A DNA stretch of 64,000 nt from the NCBI GenBank assembly GCA_937976305.1, contig CALJSB010000040.1, positions 1-64,000 on the forward strand, read 5' to 3'. Each line of letters begins with the position of its first letter. The first letter of the stretch is position 1. A program made the position numbers and the translations under genes. The DNA comes from an uncultured Acidimicrobiales bacterium. Lineage in GTDB: Bacteria; Actinomycetota; Acidimicrobiia; Acidimicrobiales; SZUA-35. Positions 10,737 to 18,357 of this stretch are shown here, one piece after another. The notes beneath the pieces were generated by a model. That model saw only the letters and a program-made list of their open reading frames with translations. It searched no databases and was not told the DNA's origin.

Positions 10737-11548
10737 GGCTGATGCACCTCGAGAACTCGTCGCTCTGCATCCCACAAAAGGCGAGCTCGGCCGTCGGCAA
10801 ACTCCGAACGAACCGCCGGATCGAGTTGGAGCCTTCCGGAGCGGTCGATCACGGCCAGCTCTCTGCCCGCATGTGTCACCGATGCGACCGAGCCGTCTCG
10901 CAAGGTCACGATCTCATCCATCTTCGGCAGCACACGATCGTCGTGGGTTGCCACAATCACCGTTGTGCCGAGGGACGTCAGAGTTGCGATGGCTTCGAGA
11001 ACCGAAGCGGCTCCAGCTGGGTCGAGATGAGCGGTCGGTTCGTCGGCAATCACCACCTTGTGGCCCGCCACAATGGCGCGGGCGAGGGCCAAGCGTTGCT
11101 GCTCGCCACCGGACATCGCCGCTGGCAGATGGTCTCGGCGGTGAAGGAGATCGAGTTGACCCAATGCATCGTCAGGAGACGGGTTGCCATGTCGTGGCGA
11201 CAATCGGCAGAGCAGTTGATGGGCGCTGATATGACCGAGGAGGTTGTCCGAGGGGCGCTGGTAGACGTGGGTCACCAGTTGACCCCGCCGCTTCGCTCGT
11301 TCCCGAGCGGACAGCGAGAACAGGTCGATGTCGGCGACATGAATTCGTCCAGCTGTTGGTTCATCGAGGCCAGCGATCATCCGTAGGAGTGATGACTTTC
11401 CGCTGCCCGACGGCCCGACGATTCCGGTCGCTGTGCCGGCGCGCAATTCGAGGTCGACGCCGCGCACAGCTTCAACTTGGCCGGTGTTGGTCGGATAGAT
11501 CTTCACGACCTGGCGACAGCTCACTGCGGTGTTCTGATCTGCCGTCAT
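10733..11548 (-). CDS. ABC transporter ATPase (MacB/LolD type)
   Basis: A 271-residue ATPase with canonical motifs: Walker A GPSGSGKSS (45-53), signature MSGGEQQR, Walker B VVIADE, D-loop AHLDP and switch His in VATHDD. About 45 residues extend beyond the ATPase core (ELAVIDRSGRLQLDPAVR), a tail seen on several actinobacterial FtsX-linked ATPases. It overlaps the permease stop upstream and the second ATPase downstream by 4 nt each, so the three genes are tightly coupled. Confidence 0.9.
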   Translation of the reverse strand: MTADQNTAVSCRQVVKIYPTNTGQVEAVRGVDLELRAGTATGIVGPSGSGKSSLLRMIAGLDEPTAGRIHVADIDLFSLSARERAKRRGQLVTHVYQRPSDNLLGHISAHQLLCRLSPRHGNPSPDDALGQLDLLHRRDHLPAAMSGGEQQRLALARAIVAGHKVVIADEPTAHLDPAGAASVLEAIATLTSLGTTVIVATHDDRVLPKMDEIVTLRDGSVASVTHAGRELAVIDRSGRLQLDPAVRSEFADGRARLLWDAERRVLEVHQP

Positions 11549-14268
11549 GTTTGCGCCCGCACGATGGAGCCGTCCGGTTGTGCGTTGGCCAAGCGGTCGA
11601 CTGACCAGGCGCCGAGGCTGGTGAACGCCACGAGCGCAATCGCCGTGCCGCCAAGAGCAAGCCAGGGCAATCCCAGATCGAGACCTGGCGGCAACGTGGG
11701 TGCTGGGTCGAACCTCGGAAGCGATCGGCGCACGATCAGAGGCACGATGGCCAAGGCGGTTGCTGTTGCGATGCTGATCAGTACCGCAACCTCAAGGGTT
11801 GTCACGAGCGCGACCTGGCCGGGGGACAGACCCATTCGTTGGGTCATGAACGTGCCGAGCTTTCGTGTCGCCCGTTGTGAGGCAAGGTAGAACGCAAGCG
11901 ATGCCAATGCGGTCAGAACGCTTGTCACTCCGAGCCAGCGCAAATACCCGAAGGCGAAAGTCGGAACGACGTAGTCAACGCTCGCTCGACGCTCATCCAC
12001 CGTTGTCACCGATCGAGAGCGCACGTTGTTGTCGTCCAAAAAGCGTTCGATCGTGGCCCGATCTTGTTGTGAAATCAGATGCTGTCTCAAGCGTTGCGAG
12101 GGAGCGAGCGTTGTGAGTGCATCTTCGGTGCGGGACAAAGAGAACGCGTCGAGTCGTTCGCTCGAGACAATCAGCGTTGACCGAGATCCCGATGCCAAAG
12201 GAATCGTGTCGAGGTCGCCGACAACACGGTAGGGGAACGGTTCTGTGATGCCGAAGCTGCCAGTCGTGGGTAATGACTCAGACGAGATAGCAAGAACGGG
12301 AAGGTCCGTCCCGGTGTCGGATGCCAGAAGTGCGGCAGCGTCACTGAACGAGAGCGGAGCGTCGTGTGGCCAATCGAACGCATCTCTGGCTGACGTCGGG
12401 TCAATCGCAACAATGCGTACCGGCTGTTGGCCGGGCGCCGCCGTCGTCTCTTCGATTCCGACAATGGTCGATTGATTGGGCAATACGGCATTCTCTGGAG
12501 GTAGGCCGACGAGGTCGGCAACCGTTTGACCGCCAACTTCCGTGAACAACGCAGAGGACGCTGCCTCGTCGAGCTGATTGACCAAGACGGCTGAGAACCC
12601 GGCAAGGCCCAACGACACGGTTAGCGCTGCCGTCACGGCTTGGCTCGCCGAGTTCGCTCGCGTCGCCCGACGCCACGCCAAGAGTCCGATCGGTGATCGC
12701 GTCGCAAGCTGGGATGCAGTGAACGCGGAGCCGGTCTTGGCCAACGCCAAGACGAGCGCAACACCGGTGAGCAGCGCCACAACCGGCAGGGTCACGACAG
12801 AAAGGTCGACGTCGGTCCGACCCGAGCCAGCGCCCACCTCGATCCAAGTGAAAGCAGTCAGGCACAGACCAGCGCCAACCGCGACCGCTCGCTGACTTGT
12901 CGATGGCGTACCAATCAGGGCGGTGCGGAGGGCGCGCTGTCCGAGCAGGCCGGTCGCCGCCGCAGCTGTGAGCCATCCAGCCCCGCCGACAAGAACGGCG
13001 CGTCGCACATCGAGAGCTGCGATTGCCGGCCGAGCATCAAGCGACGATGCTGCGGGGCCCATCGTCGCTCCGACCACGGCAGCCAGCACGAGCCCAACAG
13101 CGACGCCAACGGCGGTCGGAGAAAAGAGCTGGAGCAGCGCACGCCCGGTGAACTGCTCCCAGCGGTCACCCTCTGAGGCAAGCAGCGCAAACTCTTGCTT
13201 GCGGCGGGCAACAGCAAGCGATGCAGCCGAGACCATGACAAACAATCCAATTGCTGCGCCGGCCAATTGCGTTGACTGGAGAGGCTGATCGAGACGTTGG
13301 AGCCGCTCGTCGACAGAGTCGAGCGTGGCGGCGAGCGAGTTCGTCACGACGGGGGCAGCTGGCTGAGGCCCAGCTTGCGCTTGCAGCGCCTCGACCACGG
13401 TGGGGTCTCTCACGATGATGCGTTCGAGTTGCGTGATCTCATCGACCAGCGAGCTGAGCTCGGCCCGAGTTGTCGGTGATGTCTCGATCGGCGCAGCCCA
13501 ACGAGCCGTGCCGCTCACGCCTAGCTGTGCCATCACAGCGTCGTCGACAAACACAAGCGAGAACGATGGTGCTTGAAAGGGGTTGATGTAACTCGGTCTG
13601 AGTTCTGCAGGCATCGATTCGAGAAAGGCCGACAGATCGATACCCCGGTCGCTCGGGGGAACGGTGCCTTCCTCGTTCCACAGTTCTTCGTAGATCCCTA
13701 CGACGAGAATCTCTGCGCTGTCGCCGCCGCCGGGAGCGAACTCGGCGCCCGGTTCCTCGGGCTCAGCGTCAGAGAAGTACGTGAGAGTGTCGCCAAGGTC
13801 GACGTCGAACCGCTGGGCCATCCAGCCCGAGATCCAGGCACCCTCGAACTCATCGGGCAGATGTCGCACGTAGTCGACCGTCTGTATGGCGGTGTCGTGG
13901 TTCACGAGGCGGACCGGAACGGAGAGCGCAGTTGAGTCCTGGCCATTTGCGACGAGCCCTCGTGGCGTCGACAAGGTTCGGGTCGATGATCCAACGGCAT
14001 CGATGTCGGCAAGCCGAGCGTTTACTGCCCGATCGGCCATAGCAATGCCTGCTTCGTTGAACAGGACATTCGATTCGATGGCAACGACACGGTTCGAGTC
14101 ACGACCGTCGCTCACGAGCAGTTCGGAGATGACATCGCCAGCCCCTGTTCGCCACAACCCGGCAGTCGAGACCAGAAACACCGGAGTAGCAGCGGCACAA
14201 ACGAGAGCAACAACAAGCGTGACGTTGCGCCAGGGCACCAAAAGCCAACGCAGCCATGCTGCGCTCAT
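11545..14268 (-). CDS. FtsX/MacB-like ABC permease, two FtsX domains
   Basis: A 907-residue permease with an N-terminal membrane helix (residues 8-35) and a long extracellular region to about 330. Three helices from about 340 to 460 (LAGAAIGLFVMVSAASLAVA, then GVAVGLVLAAVVGA) form the first FtsX core. A second external domain sits at about 560-730, and a second FtsX core lies at about 760-890. This doubled layout fits mechanotransmission exporters or lipoprotein movers rather than a pore. ATG 14268 is chosen: the longer frame from 14487 is Ser/Arg-rich, and MSAAWLRWL is a natural start. The gene starts 10 nt after the ankyrin stop. Confidence 0.88.
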   Translation of the reverse strand: MSAAWLRWLLVPWRNVTLVVALVCAAATPVFLVSTAGLWRTGAGDVISELLVSDGRDSNRVVAIESNVLFNEAGIAMADRAVNARLADIDAVGSSTRTLSTPRGLVANGQDSTALSVPVRLVNHDTAIQTVDYVRHLPDEFEGAWISGWMAQRFDVDLGDTLTYFSDAEPEEPGAEFAPGGGDSAEILVVGIYEELWNEEGTVPPSDRGIDLSAFLESMPAELRPSYINPFQAPSFSLVFVDDAVMAQLGVSGTARWAAPIETSPTTRAELSSLVDEITQLERIIVRDPTVVEALQAQAGPQPAAPVVTNSLAATLDSVDERLQRLDQPLQSTQLAGAAIGLFVMVSAASLAVARRKQEFALLASEGDRWEQFTGRALLQLFSPTAVGVAVGLVLAAVVGATMGPAASSLDARPAIAALDVRRAVLVGGAGWLTAAAATGLLGQRALRTALIGTPSTSQRAVAVGAGLCLTAFTWIEVGAGSGRTDVDLSVVTLPVVALLTGVALVLALAKTGSAFTASQLATRSPIGLLAWRRATRANSASQAVTAALTVSLGLAGFSAVLVNQLDEAASSALFTEVGGQTVADLVGLPPENAVLPNQSTIVGIEETTAAPGQQPVRIVAIDPTSARDAFDWPHDAPLSFSDAAALLASDTGTDLPVLAISSESLPTTGSFGITEPFPYRVVGDLDTIPLASGSRSTLIVSSERLDAFSLSRTEDALTTLAPSQRLRQHLISQQDRATIERFLDDNNVRSRSVTTVDERRASVDYVVPTFAFGYLRWLGVTSVLTALASLAFYLASQRATRKLGTFMTQRMGLSPGQVALVTTLEVAVLISIATATALAIVPLIVRRSLPRFDPAPTLPPGLDLGLPWLALGGTAIALVAFTSLGAWSVDRLANAQPDGSIVRAQT

Positions 14269-14278
14269 GATCGATACG

Positions 14279-15148
14279 TCATGACTGGCGAGGCGAGTCG
14301 CTCTCGATGAGTAGGGCAAGTGCCTCGTCGATTGACAGGCCTGACAAGCGGATGGTCTCGCCGTTCGAGGTCTCGGCATTGGCTCCGGCGTCCGCAAGCA
14401 GGCTGATGAGCTGGCGGGCAACGCCATCATCTGGACTCGTGTCGATTGTGTCGAGGGCGTAGCGAACGACAGGACGACCGGTTGCATCGATCGCGTTCAC
14501 GTCGGCACCCGACTCGATCAGAACCTCGATCGCTGGAACGTGGTTGTGGCCAACGGCAATCATGAGCGCAGTCGAGCCGAATCGATTGTTGGTCTGTGCC
14601 TCGGGGTCGGCACCGGCGCGCAGTAGGGCCTCGATCGCAGCGACGTTGCCGCTTCGCGCTGACAGATGCAGTGCGGTGTGGCCCGACTGGCTGACCGGGG
14701 CAAGGTCGGCTCCGAGCCCGACGAGGAATTCGATCGTGTCCGGGTTTCCACGGATCGAGGCGATCATCAGCGGTGTAAAGCCAAAGTCGCCCGCCTCATC
14801 CACGTCGGTCCCGGCAGAAATCAGTACGGAAACGGCGGTGAGGTCATCGTTGCGAATGGCCTCAGCAAGCACGTCGAAGGACGGAACCCCTTCTTGGCTC
14901 AGCGTTGCGATCGGATCCCCCTCAGACCGGGCTTCGATCGCCACGCTCTGCCCCGTGCTCAGTCGGCCGCTCGCAAACGCCCCAAGGCTCGCAGAAGCGA
15001 GCGCAAACACGATGGCCACCCCAGCTCGGGTTGTTTGACGTCGGCGCCGAAACCGCGTCGCCAGCAAGCGAGTCTCGGTTGCCGATATGCGGGTGTCAGC
15101 CGGTCCAGCGATGCGAGCCAGACCCCGTTCGAGCTCATCAACCCTCAT
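14279..15148 (-). CDS. Membrane-anchored ankyrin-repeat protein next to an ECF sigma factor
   Basis: A 289-residue protein. Residues 1-37 are a charged, helical cytoplasmic segment, followed by RRRR and one membrane helix (about 42-60). The exterior holds about five ankyrin repeats (residues 85-270), with hallmarks GFTPLMIAS, GHTALHLSA and STALMIAVGH. Its start overlaps the sigma gene by 11 nt. This is the gene position and the single-pass topology of an anti-sigma factor, yet no zinc-binding HxxxCxxC motif is present. An anti-sigma role with an ankyrin sensor is inference from context; a simple surface-anchored scaffold is the alternative. Confidence 0.75.
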   Translation of the reverse strand: MRVDELERGLARIAGPADTRISATETRLLATRFRRRRQTTRAGVAIVFALASASLGAFASGRLSTGQSVAIEARSEGDPIATLSQEGVPSFDVLAEAIRNDDLTAVSVLISAGTDVDEAGDFGFTPLMIASIRGNPDTIEFLVGLGADLAPVSQSGHTALHLSARSGNVAAIEALLRAGADPEAQTNNRFGSTALMIAVGHNHVPAIEVLIESGADVNAIDATGRPVVRYALDTIDTSPDDGVARQLISLLADAGANAETSNGETIRLSGLSIDEALALLIESDSPRQS

Positions 15149-15782
15149 GGTGCTCCCCGGTGTCGGTCTCGACGTCGGCATCGAGCGATACCCGCAATGC
15201 TGCGAGGGCGCGATGGTTGAGAGTCTTCACCGTGCCGGGCGTGACGCCGAGAGTTTCTGCGGTCTCGGCAACGGTCATCCGCACGAAGTGACGAAGAATG
15301 ACGACCTCTTGTTGCCGTCCCGTGAGCCCGGCGATGGCCTCCCGAAGCGCTAGGTGTTCGACGGCGAGAATCTCAGGGCTCGGGGTGGTCAGCGAGGTAT
15401 CGGCACTGCTGCGATGCTCGGCTCTTCGTCTGGATCTCAGCTTGCGCCAGTGCGATGTCGAGAGATTGAACGCAACGCGGAAGACCCAACCTCTCGGGTT
15501 GGTCATCACTGAGACAGCTGGCCAGTCGGCCCACGCACGGGCTATTGCTTCCTGCGCGATGTCTTCGGCAAGCGCTCGGCTGCCGGTTCGAATGACGAGG
15601 GCGCCGACGAGCGGGTTCTTCACCTCGGCAAAGAACCTCGACGCGTCGGTCTGAAAGTCGAGCGGGCTGGTGGCGCGATGCGACGCGTCGGTGTTGAGTC
15701 GGTCAGCAGCTGAAGCTGCATCCCAACGACGGGTCATGCGGGCATCGCCTCCCGCCGAGCTTCGACTCAGAAATTCCTCCAT
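15138..15782 (-). CDS. ECF (extracytoplasmic function) RNA polymerase sigma factor
   Basis: A 214-residue protein from ATG 15782; TTG 15794 is an alternative. Region 2 spans about residues 50-115 (LVIRTGSRALAEDIAQEA, then ARAWADW and NPRGWVFRVAFN). Region 4 spans about 150-200 (LTGRQQEVVILRHF, then TVAETAETLGVTPGTVK), with the helix-turn-helix that reads -35 elements. It has the SigE/SigM-type layout without extra domains. It is the first gene of a run through the ankyrin protein, the FtsX permease and two ATPases, so it may control that exporter. Confidence 0.9.
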   Translation of the reverse strand: MEEFLSRSSAGGDARMTRRWDAASAADRLNTDASHRATSPLDFQTDASRFFAEVKNPLVGALVIRTGSRALAEDIAQEAIARAWADWPAVSVMTNPRGWVFRVAFNLSTSHWRKLRSRRRAEHRSSADTSLTTPSPEILAVEHLALREAIAGLTGRQQEVVILRHFVRMTVAETAETLGVTPGTVKTLNHRALAALRVSLDADVETDTGEHHEG

Positions 15783-15949
15783 CGGGAACAACAACGCTCA
15801 CCAAGCCGTCTTGGTTGACACGGCTCTGGCGGAAAAATGAACATTTCGGGCCCGATCCACCAATCTCGGGTCGTCTCCCTAAGATCGCTGCCGCTGATCT
15901 CGTGCCTATTGGGGAGAGTGGGTACGAGATCAGCTACCAATGCGTCCGG

Positions 15950-16513
15950 CTACGGGGTCCAGTTGGGATCGCGACCCACGAGACCAAGGTATTGATCGAC
16001 CACGTTGGCGCTATCGATCGCAATTGCATCGGCGGTGCGGCCCGACTCGGCGAGCATCGACGACATGGGTTGCAGGACCTCCATGCTTGCTTGCACGAGG
16101 CCTTGGTCCATCGCTGCCTCTTGTCCGGTGGCCTTGGCCAGGTCCCATGAATGCACGAGCGGATCCCACGTGACAACGCCGATCATGTCGTCGACCGTTG
16201 CTGCGTTGAACCAGAACGGGCCCTCTTGGCCGAGGGTGCCCGCTGAGTCGAGAGCGGCGAGCAGGTTGTCTCGTGTCTCACACCATGCGGCAGCTGGGTC
16301 TGACATGTCCGCGGGCGGATTCGGCTTTGCCATGGCGCCGCTCGTTGCGACATCGGTGACGCCGCGCAGCACTGCACACTGGTGTTCCACGAGTGCTCGG
16401 GCGTCCCACTCCTCACACGGTGTTTGGTTTCCCCATGCAGAAGCGTCGACTCTGTTGACGACAGCATCGAAGGCGTACACGGCTTTGGTGAACTGACGAA
16501 GGTTCTTGCTCAT
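15950..16513 (-). CDS. TIGR03086/mycothiol-dependent isomerase-like (DinB fold) protein
   Basis: A 187-residue four-helix protein. Residues 30-45 (NQTPCEEWDARALVEHQ) match the WTPCSEWDVRDLVNH signature of actinobacterial TIGR03086 proteins, with a metal-binding His, and WDPLVHSWDLAKATG near 130 supplies the second metal His. Relatives include maleylpyruvate isomerase N-terminal domains; many members have no known substrate, though mycothiol is a likely cofactor. ATG 16513 has TATGTT 6 nt upstream. It is divergent from the redox gene at 16542 with only 28 nt between. Confidence 0.8.
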   Translation of the reverse strand: MSKNLRQFTKAVYAFDAVVNRVDASAWGNQTPCEEWDARALVEHQCAVLRGVTDVATSGAMAKPNPPADMSDPAAAWCETRDNLLAALDSAGTLGQEGPFWFNAATVDDMIGVVTWDPLVHSWDLAKATGQEAAMDQGLVQASMEVLQPMSSMLAESGRTADAIAIDSANVVDQYLGLVGRDPNWTP

Positions 16514-16541: not shown

Positions 16542-17180
16542 ATGTACGAGGACGTTCTCAATCTCCGCCGCAGCACGGGCGCCATCATCTTGATGACCTA
16601 CCGAGGAGATTGGTGACCGTATTGCTGCGCCCAGCTCGTGCGGCTGGAATCACAAATCGCAGACATCCACGGCGCCGGCGCTGAAGTCGTTGCCCTTTCG
16701 GTGAACGATGATGTTCGCCAGGCCGGCATGGCCGAGCGGTGGAAGTTGAACAACATCAAGATGGCGTCCGACGCCGGCGGCGAGTCAATCCTCCAGCCAC
16801 TCGGCTTGTTCGACCCCGATGATCGCGGCGGCATCGCCCTGCCAGCGATGATCGTCGTCGGACCAGACGGCACCGAGGCCTATCGCTACAACGGGCGTGA
16901 CTTCGCTGACCGCACGACCGACGACGATGTCATGGCGGCGGTGCGCGGCTTGAACCTCGACGGCATTGATCCTGACCCGTGGGTGCCAACGGCATCGGTA
17001 CCCGATGACCTCAGTGGGTTCTTCCCCGTCGGGCGCTACGCGGCGTACTTCGCAGGCAACAAGTTCGCCGCCATCGCCATCGGCGGACGTCTGCCGGACA
17101 AGGAGACGGCAGGGATCGCTCGAGAGCACCGGTTGATGGCCGAAGCAAGCCTCGAGGCGTTTGAACAGCTGAATTCGTAA
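16542..17180 (+). CDS. Thioredoxin-fold redox protein, candidate selenoprotein (in-frame UGA in UxxC motif)
   Basis: One frame runs from ATG 16542 to the stop at 17180 except for TGA at 16614-16616, codon 25 of 212. Around it the protein reads TYRGDW-[UGA]-PYCCAQLVRL. In peroxiredoxin-like proteins this is the RGxWCPYCxxQL redox motif, so UGA stands exactly at the first catalytic Cys, giving a UxxC. The fold continues normally: GAEVVALSV, then LFDPDDRGGIALPAMIVVGPDG with the cis-Pro segment, and a C-terminal extension of about 80 residues. Without readthrough, only a fragment from GTG 16638 remains, lacking the active site. No selA, selB, selD or tRNA-Sec is in this window. A nonsense mutation is the alternative. 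GAGGAG directly abuts the ATG, so the exact start is uncertain. Confidence 0.72.
16614..16647 (+). promoter_or_regulatory. Candidate bacterial SECIS region after the UGA
   Basis: Downstream of the UGA two competing hairpins can form. One is CCAGC/GCTGG (16631-16635 with 16643-16647) plus a T-G pair and a CGTGC loop, with a G 22 nt after the UGA. The other is a 7-bp stem GCTGCGC/GTGCGGC (16624-16630 with 16638-16644) with two wobbles. Bacterial SECIS elements lie just after the UGA and are poorly conserved in sequence, so this is a candidate only. Confidence 0.4.
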
Positions 17181-17286: not shown

Positions 17287-17317
17287 TTCAGAGTGCGGTT
17301 CTTACCACCACTCTGAA
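17287..17317 (+). promoter_or_regulatory. 9-bp perfect inverted repeat covering a start codon
   Basis: TTCAGAGTG (17287-17295) pairs exactly with CACTCTGAA (17309-17317); the loop is 13 nt. The last arm base is the A of ATG 17317. It could hide that start in mRNA or act as an operator on DNA. Confidence 0.5.
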
Positions 17318-18357
17318 TGAAAGTTCTCAAGCGAATGCGGCGACATCCCCTCAACCCAATGCGAGCGTTGCTCCGGATCACCATGGTCCTGTCGCTCCTG
17401 GCGGCAACGCTGATGACGGTCACGCTTTCACCGGCACCCGCAGAAGCCACCCCCAACTACGCCGCCATGTCGAGCGAGGTGTTCGCTCAGATCAACGCCG
17501 AGCGTGCCGGCCGAGGTATGGCTCCGCTCGAGCGTCTTGCGCTCGCGGATGGTCACGCCACCACCGTCGCCAACCACTTGCTCAACCTCGGCCAGCTCGA
17601 CGGACATGCGCTCTTTTCGGCCAACGTCAACGACTGGTACTTCTCGGGTCAAGGCATCTGGGGCGCTGGCGAGAATCTCGCGTTCAACAACGGCACCACC
17701 AACCAGGCCGTCGTCAACCTCATGAACTCGGCCTCGCACCGAGCCAACATCTTGAGCACTGGCTTCACGCACGTCGGTGTCGGCCTCGCATGCTCGTCAT
17801 CGGGACGCCTCTACACCGTGATGCACTTCACCTCTGACGACTACGTCGCCATGAGCAGCGCTGGCGGCTCGACGCCAGCCAATCCCATCGTCACCGATCC
17901 CACCCAGGGATCGACCTGCGATTCGGCCAGCCAGCCTGATCCGGTTCAGAACACCGGCTGCACGTTCTTCACCCCGCAGCACGCAGCGCACCTCGGTGCA
18001 CAGACCACCACCGATGTCGGTGGCCAGGTGTTCCGACTCTACGTCGCCTACTTCTCACGAGTGCCTGACACCGCCGGCTTCAACTACTGGCTCAACCAGG
18101 TCGACACCGGGCAGATGACGATGCGTGAGATCAGCGCCTTCTTTGCCAACAGCACCGAGTTCCGCACCACCTACGGCCCGATCTCGAACTACTCGTTCAC
18201 CAACCTCGTCTACCAGAACGTGCTGTGTCGCAACCCTGACGCCACTGGCTACGGGTTCTGGCTGAACAACCTCGACCTGGGTGCCATGAATCGTGGCGAG
18301 GTCATGTTGTTCTTCAGCGACTCGACCGAGTTCCGGACCCAGACCAAGACGGCGTAA
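17317..18357 (+). CDS. Secreted CAP/SCP-domain protein with DUF4214 repeats
   Basis: A 346-residue protein. A basic start and a hydrophobic helix (about 17-37, RITMVLSLLAATLMTVTLSP) end in APAEA, a signal peptide with cleavage near 43. A CAP domain covers about 48-175 with its metal-type His residues (DGHA, LDGHALFS) and GENLAF and SHRANILS. Two DUF4214 units follow (about 225-340), each with the RLYVAYFSRVPDTAGFNYW-type core and SxEFRxxY. Fusion of CAP with DUF4214 is typical of Ilumatobacter-like genomes; DUF4214 is thought to hold proteins at the surface or in S-layer-like material. ATG 17317 is partly covered by an inverted repeat; ATG 17335 or 17359 are alternative starts. Confidence 0.82.
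   Translation: MKVLKRMRRHPLNPMRALLRITMVLSLLAATLMTVTLSPAPAEATPNYAAMSSEVFAQINAERAGRGMAPLERLALADGHATTVANHLLNLGQLDGHALFSANVNDWYFSGQGIWGAGENLAFNNGTTNQAVVNLMNSASHRANILSTGFTHVGVGLACSSSGRLYTVMHFTSDDYVAMSSAGGSTPANPIVTDPTQGSTCDSASQPDPVQNTGCTFFTPQHAAHLGAQTTTDVGGQVFRLYVAYFSRVPDTAGFNYWLNQVDTGQMTMREISAFFANSTEFRTTYGPISNYSFTNLVYQNVLCRNPDATGYGFWLNNLDLGAMNRGEVMLFFSDSTEFRTQTKTA

Follow-up and report, generated by a model that had tools for sequence, protein, structure and literature searches.

Is the TGA at positions 16614-16616 of the window (the whole stretch of 64,000 nucleotides of Acidimicrobiales DNA that was analysed) the end of a very short reading frame, or is it a codon for selenocysteine (Sec) in the active site of a redox protein? 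The frame in question (16542-17180, forward strand) runs from an ATG through 23 more codons to the TGA at codon 25, which stands in the context Y-R-G-D-W-U-P-Y-C, and then through 187 sense codons to a TAA. An earlier note on this DNA had claimed that the frame is continuous across the TGA, and this is what we find: that codon is its sole internal stop. Further stops shortly upstream of the ATG close the frame, and ATG 16542 is therefore the natural start of a complete coding sequence for a predicted 212-residue protein. The note had also foreseen that automatic gene calling would begin at GTG 16638 and lose the active site; indeed, the mechanical list of open reading frames gives exactly 16638-17180, of 180 amino acids, and nothing else in this frame. 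We argue that this is a working gene for a selenoprotein, whose UGA is read as Sec, a reading to which we assign a probability of about 0.96. From the sequences we can show that the frame is intact, that the UGA is conserved, that SECIS-like RNA, Sec machinery and Cys homologues are all present, and to which fold family the protein belongs; Sec incorporation itself, the substrate and the reductant we infer.

How widely is this TGA shared? Among 60 relatives we found 17 orthologues, with identities of 56-78%, and when 298 genomes of the order were searched two further homologues came to light, one of 66% identity over residues 3-133 and one of 44%. TGA occupies the identical codon in 20/20 homologues of the order, the window included (19 other genomes, 44-78% identity over the aligned part). 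Across the phylum, where a profile search covered 397 genomes, the active site could be read in 47 sequences, with TGA in 40 and TGC in the other 7, which answers the question raised in the note as to whether homologues carry Cys or UGA at codon 25. The partner residue, Cys28 (TGC, 16623-16625), is invariant in the orthologue alignment. Coding constraint is found on both sides of the UGA: in comparisons with the four closest relatives (NG86), dN/dS is about 0.09-0.22 before the TGA and 0.09-0.16 after it, the pattern of substitutions is reversed in shifted frames, and both the first 24 codons and those between the UGA and Cys28 are constrained at the amino-acid level just as the rest is. The coding character that had been claimed for the 187 codons past the TGA is thus borne out by purifying selection, and a private mutation with downstream decay, which had been named as what would overturn the selenoprotein reading, is not what we see, since the UGA recurs in 19 further genomes and nothing decays downstream.

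Bacterial SECIS elements present a hairpin whose loop carries a G among its first bases, about 16-37 nt past the UGA. Downstream of this UGA, at +15 to +31 nt (16631-16647), we predict an apical hairpin in which six pairs (16631-16636 with 16642-16647) close the five-base loop CGUGC (+21 to +25; 16637-16641), with its early G. RNAalifold, run on 18 orthologues, yields exactly this helix; 100% of cells are paired, two pairs have changed on both sides (G-C to A-U and C-G to U-A), and in slid controls, where the partner was moved by 1-3 columns, pairing falls to 3-49%. Synonymous variation is suppressed over codons +6 to +10, which coincide with the hairpin: their excess identity is 0.42-0.84, and 65 other codons average 0.04 (p=0.0002). 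The GTG at 16638 sits inside the hairpin loop. Folded alone, the 21-nt hairpin of the window copy is moderately stable (z -1.74), and the optimum for a 50-nt RNA is another structure (z -0.54), one that, we infer, draws in large part on bases near the UGA, which would be covered by the ribosome. It is on the comparison across orthologues that the predicted SECIS rests, and in compensatory pairs and synonymous constraint the check for such an element, as proposed in the note, came out positive.

Can the organism decode UGA in this way? The assembly (4.42 Mb in 160 contigs, 91.6% complete) contains SelA (337 bits, contig C137) with SelB directly after it (267 bits, cut-off 242), SelD (363 bits, contig C102) as well as a 92-nt tRNA-Sec whose anticodon is TCA (contig C110; Rfam 71.3 bits, gathering 47). 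The absence of Sec machinery, on which the selenoprotein reading would have foundered, is therefore not the situation in this genome, and the genes it holds support the claim that the organism would decode UGA as Sec. The gene and the machinery also tend to occur together: SelA is present in 8/8 genomes with the gene against 183/298 overall in the order sample (p=0.02), and, at E<=1e-50, in 28/31 genomes with the UGA form against 230/397 overall in the phylum sample (p=5e-5), with relatedness ignored in both tests. Three drafts with the UGA form (G574, G584 and G668) yielded neither SelA at E<=1e-50 nor a SelB match above its cut-off; G584 and G668 each also hold a Cys copy beside the UGA copy, and the three may be incomplete drafts or may carry relic UGA genes.

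Other loci in these genomes also draw the eye. The selD gene itself (C102:11932-12855) has an in-frame TGA at the usual place (HGAG-U-ACK), followed by a stable hairpin with the loop GGUUC, and SelD, the selenium donor enzyme, is thus itself a predicted selenoprotein. A second probable selenoprotein of the same genome (C3:8538-8566, reverse strand) combines a redoxin domain (RSAVWUPPCMTQLV) with a C-terminal region of about 200 residues and a hairpin after the UGA, GCAGCU-GGUCG-AGCUGC; three of its relatives have UGA at the same place. Two genomes of the same family encode a small Prx-like UGA protein of about 180 aa (FYRGHWUPYCRQQLVDF) that is distinct from the family in the window, and another genome of the order (G048) encodes, at about position 1380 on the reverse strand, a UGA redoxin with a long C-terminal region (RSADWUPYCRNQLVEL).

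Other explanations of the TGA have to be weighed against this background. Could it be a nonsense mutation in a pseudogene, or a miscalled TGC, TGT or TGG in a normal Cys protein? A lone in-frame stop in a draft would fit by itself, but the TGA shared by every homologue of the order in independent genomes, the selection that continues past it and a hairpin conserved with compensatory changes make this exceedingly improbable; as far as sequences can speak, the conserved TGA in independent assemblies has already refuted it. Nor do we consider it at all likely that the UGA is a genuine stop, with translation ending at residue 24 and restarting at GTG 16638 to give a protein of 180 residues, even though that is the only reading frame called mechanically. 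The codons ahead of the UGA, and those from there to Cys28, are constrained like the rest; the product of a restart would, according to the structure model, begin past the whole active site and midway through the first helix after it; and the Cys found in place of the UGA in seven relatives would go unexplained. If UGA had been reassigned throughout the genome, to Trp or Cys for example, the frame would likewise be open, but the same gene ends at TGA in six of the orthologues, so TGA still terminates, and both the dedicated tRNA-Sec with SelA, SelB and SelD and the conserved, site-specific hairpin speak for Sec recoding instead, which renders reassignment so improbable that it can practically be set aside.

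What kind of protein would a Sec-containing product be? Read through the UGA, it matches PF00578 (AhpC-TSA) with 46.4 bits (cut-off 26) and PF08534 (Redoxin) with 39.2 bits. The AhpC/TSA domain, of Prx/thioredoxin fold, spans residues ~12-119 (16575-16898), with the Pfam match at residues 13-111. Our AlphaFold model is a modest one (mean pLDDT 56) and served for the N-terminal fold only; in it the N-terminal two thirds take up a Prx/thioredoxin fold in which the first long helix past the first strand opens with the UPYC motif, and its Foldseek matches are peroxiredoxins. Residues 136-212 (16947-17177) form a C-terminal region with a conserved YFxGNxFxAxAI, modelled at low confidence, and this YFxGNxF region has no match in Pfam.

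The position of the Sec within this fold is where the earlier claim, of a Sec at the active-site redox Cys of a UxxC thioredoxin-fold protein, needs to be revised. The active-site UxxC stands (WUPYC, in place of TxxC or TxxU); the idea that Sec replaces the peroxidatic Cys finds no support, because alignment with the Bcp of Aeropyrum pernix (2cx3) pairs Cys28 with that Cys, and the Ser/Thr of TxxC with Sec25. As Cys28 and not Sec25 holds the peroxidatic position in this alignment, the UxxC arrangement points to the Prx-like thiol:disulfide oxidoreductases, and not to a peroxiredoxin with a peroxidatic Sec (TxxU). A true peroxiredoxin with Sec as its peroxidatic residue would accord with the AhpC-TSA and Redoxin matches and with the Foldseek matches, but we deem it unlikely given the 2cx3 alignment, given that known Sec peroxiredoxins are TxxU with UxxC members listed separately as Prx-like, and given that the peroxiredoxin models of NCBIfam reach 11-13 bits, which falls far short of their cut-offs. 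We also considered, and rejected, membership of the classical peroxiredoxins, whose PxxxTxxC/U motif is not present here, Sec25 taking the position of the Thr and Cys28 that of the peroxidatic Cys, and of the SelL-related redox proteins (NF040769), for which the window protein reaches 14.4 bits against a cut-off of 120.

Taken together, we posit the following mechanism. SelB carrying Sec-tRNA(Sec), bound to the hairpin 15-31 nt downstream, would have UGA 16614 read as selenocysteine, and the product would be a protein of 212 residues with the AhpC/TSA fold and the active site W-Sec25-Pro-Tyr-Cys28. Sec25 would most likely be the nucleophile that attacks a peroxide or a disulfide, Cys28 may then resolve it as a selenenylsulfide, and a cellular thiol system would reduce this in turn.

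The surroundings of the gene offer little guidance on the substrate: we sought an operon or a neighbour from which to argue, but synteny extends only to the closest relatives, with no conserved partner, and no conserved neighbour indicates a peroxide or a disulfide. Next door and divergent lies a gene for a mycothiol-maleylpyruvate-isomerase-like protein (15950-16513, reverse strand; PF11716), which has an 81% identical neighbour in one close relative (L010) and is not conserved further out. Directly downstream, a CAP-domain protein with DUF4214, probably secreted (17317-18357, forward strand), is conserved as the gene's neighbour in L010 and L011, the closest relatives. Further off on the reverse strand (11545-15794) are an ECF-type sigma factor (15138-15794), an ankyrin-repeat protein (14279-15181), an unusual neighbour for such a factor, and an FtsX-like permease (11545-14487).

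The Cys homologues may tell us something of the history of the family. All seven TGC forms fall within one family on the tree (f77), whose other members keep UGA. Further afield, a scan of genome contigs had as its sole match one distant relative in Azospirillum, which is a Cys form at the Sec site (RGDWCPYCCAQL), and a plasmid search gave only distant 'peroxiredoxin-like family' matches of 24-39% identity. The loop GU is found in 39/40 UGA forms, L049 being the one without it, against 1/7 Cys forms, a comparison for which the tree provides only two well-supported independent Sec/Cys contrasts. Six of the seven Cys forms lack it because they have Ala instead of Val at codon +8; nearly all UGA forms read QLV, and the Cys forms mostly QLA. 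Tentatively, and at somewhat less than even odds, we speculate that this subfamily (AhpC-fold proteins with RGDWUPYC and a C-terminal YFxGNxF, in several families of one phylum and with no database model yet) was ancestrally a Sec one, that Sec later gave way to Cys in one family with the SECIS loop decaying afterwards, and that it was the RNA rather than the protein that kept Val conserved at codon +8. Cys forms beside UGA forms within one family offer a natural series for the study of Sec-to-Cys conversion, and QLV versus QLA a natural experiment on the limits that an RNA hairpin within a coding sequence sets on amino acids.

There are practical implications, too. As the family lies outside all curated NCBIfam models, standard annotation of these genomes would yield a protein of ~180 residues that lacks its active site; the set of sequences makes a clean case for improving Sec-aware annotation. 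Whilst about 60% of the sampled genomes of the lineage carry SelA, we found almost no selenoprotein literature for it, and a Prx-like enzyme can now be proposed as an addition to its selenoproteome. The claim that the family member is unannotated holds in part: the window protein scores below the cut-off of every NCBIfam model, but UxxC Prx-like selenoproteins as such have been described since 2005, when a Sargasso Sea study distinguished them from Sec peroxiredoxins with TxxU (PMC1088965), and they appear in published catalogues (PMC13188914, PMC9312934, PMC2398784, PMC1794560).

How, then, does this protein compare with known systems? By its sequence it belongs to the known 'Prx-like UxxC selenoprotein' kind (PF00578), within which it forms a subgroup marked by a C-terminal region of its own. 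With the Prx-like thiol:disulfide oxidoreductase selenoproteins (UxxC/UxxU; WP_010940744.1, PMC13188914 Table 1; 'Prx-like protein' in PMC1088965, 'Prx-like 1' in PMC2398784) it shares the AhpC-TSA domain, UxxC in place of TxxU and the existence of Cys homologues; the members of the group found here share RGDWUPYC and a C-terminal YFxGNxF, by which it may be a different subgroup from that of WP_010940744.1. The UxxC selenoproteins of the Redoxin family (PF08534; MBA3499694.1 and HEU0032618.1; PMC9312934, PMC13188914), probably related to 'Prx-like 3' of PMC2398784, are alike in the PF08534 match and in UxxC, but by domain score PF00578 ranks higher for the window protein. The SelL-related redox model is the nearest in NCBIfam over the 18 orthologues (best E 2e-8). 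With the Bcp/PrxQ and AhpC peroxiredoxins (2cx3, 3hjp) the protein has its fold and the position of Cys28 in common, and it differs from them in the extra Sec at the Thr/Ser of TxxC and in a C-terminal region outside Pfam. As for decoding, the components of the E. coli type are all present, namely SelA, SelB, SelD, tRNA-Sec and a hairpin just 3' of the UGA; the loop here is CGUGC, whereas the other UGA genes of the same genome have GGUCG (contig C3) and GGUUC (selD), and the part common to these loops is therefore N-G-U.
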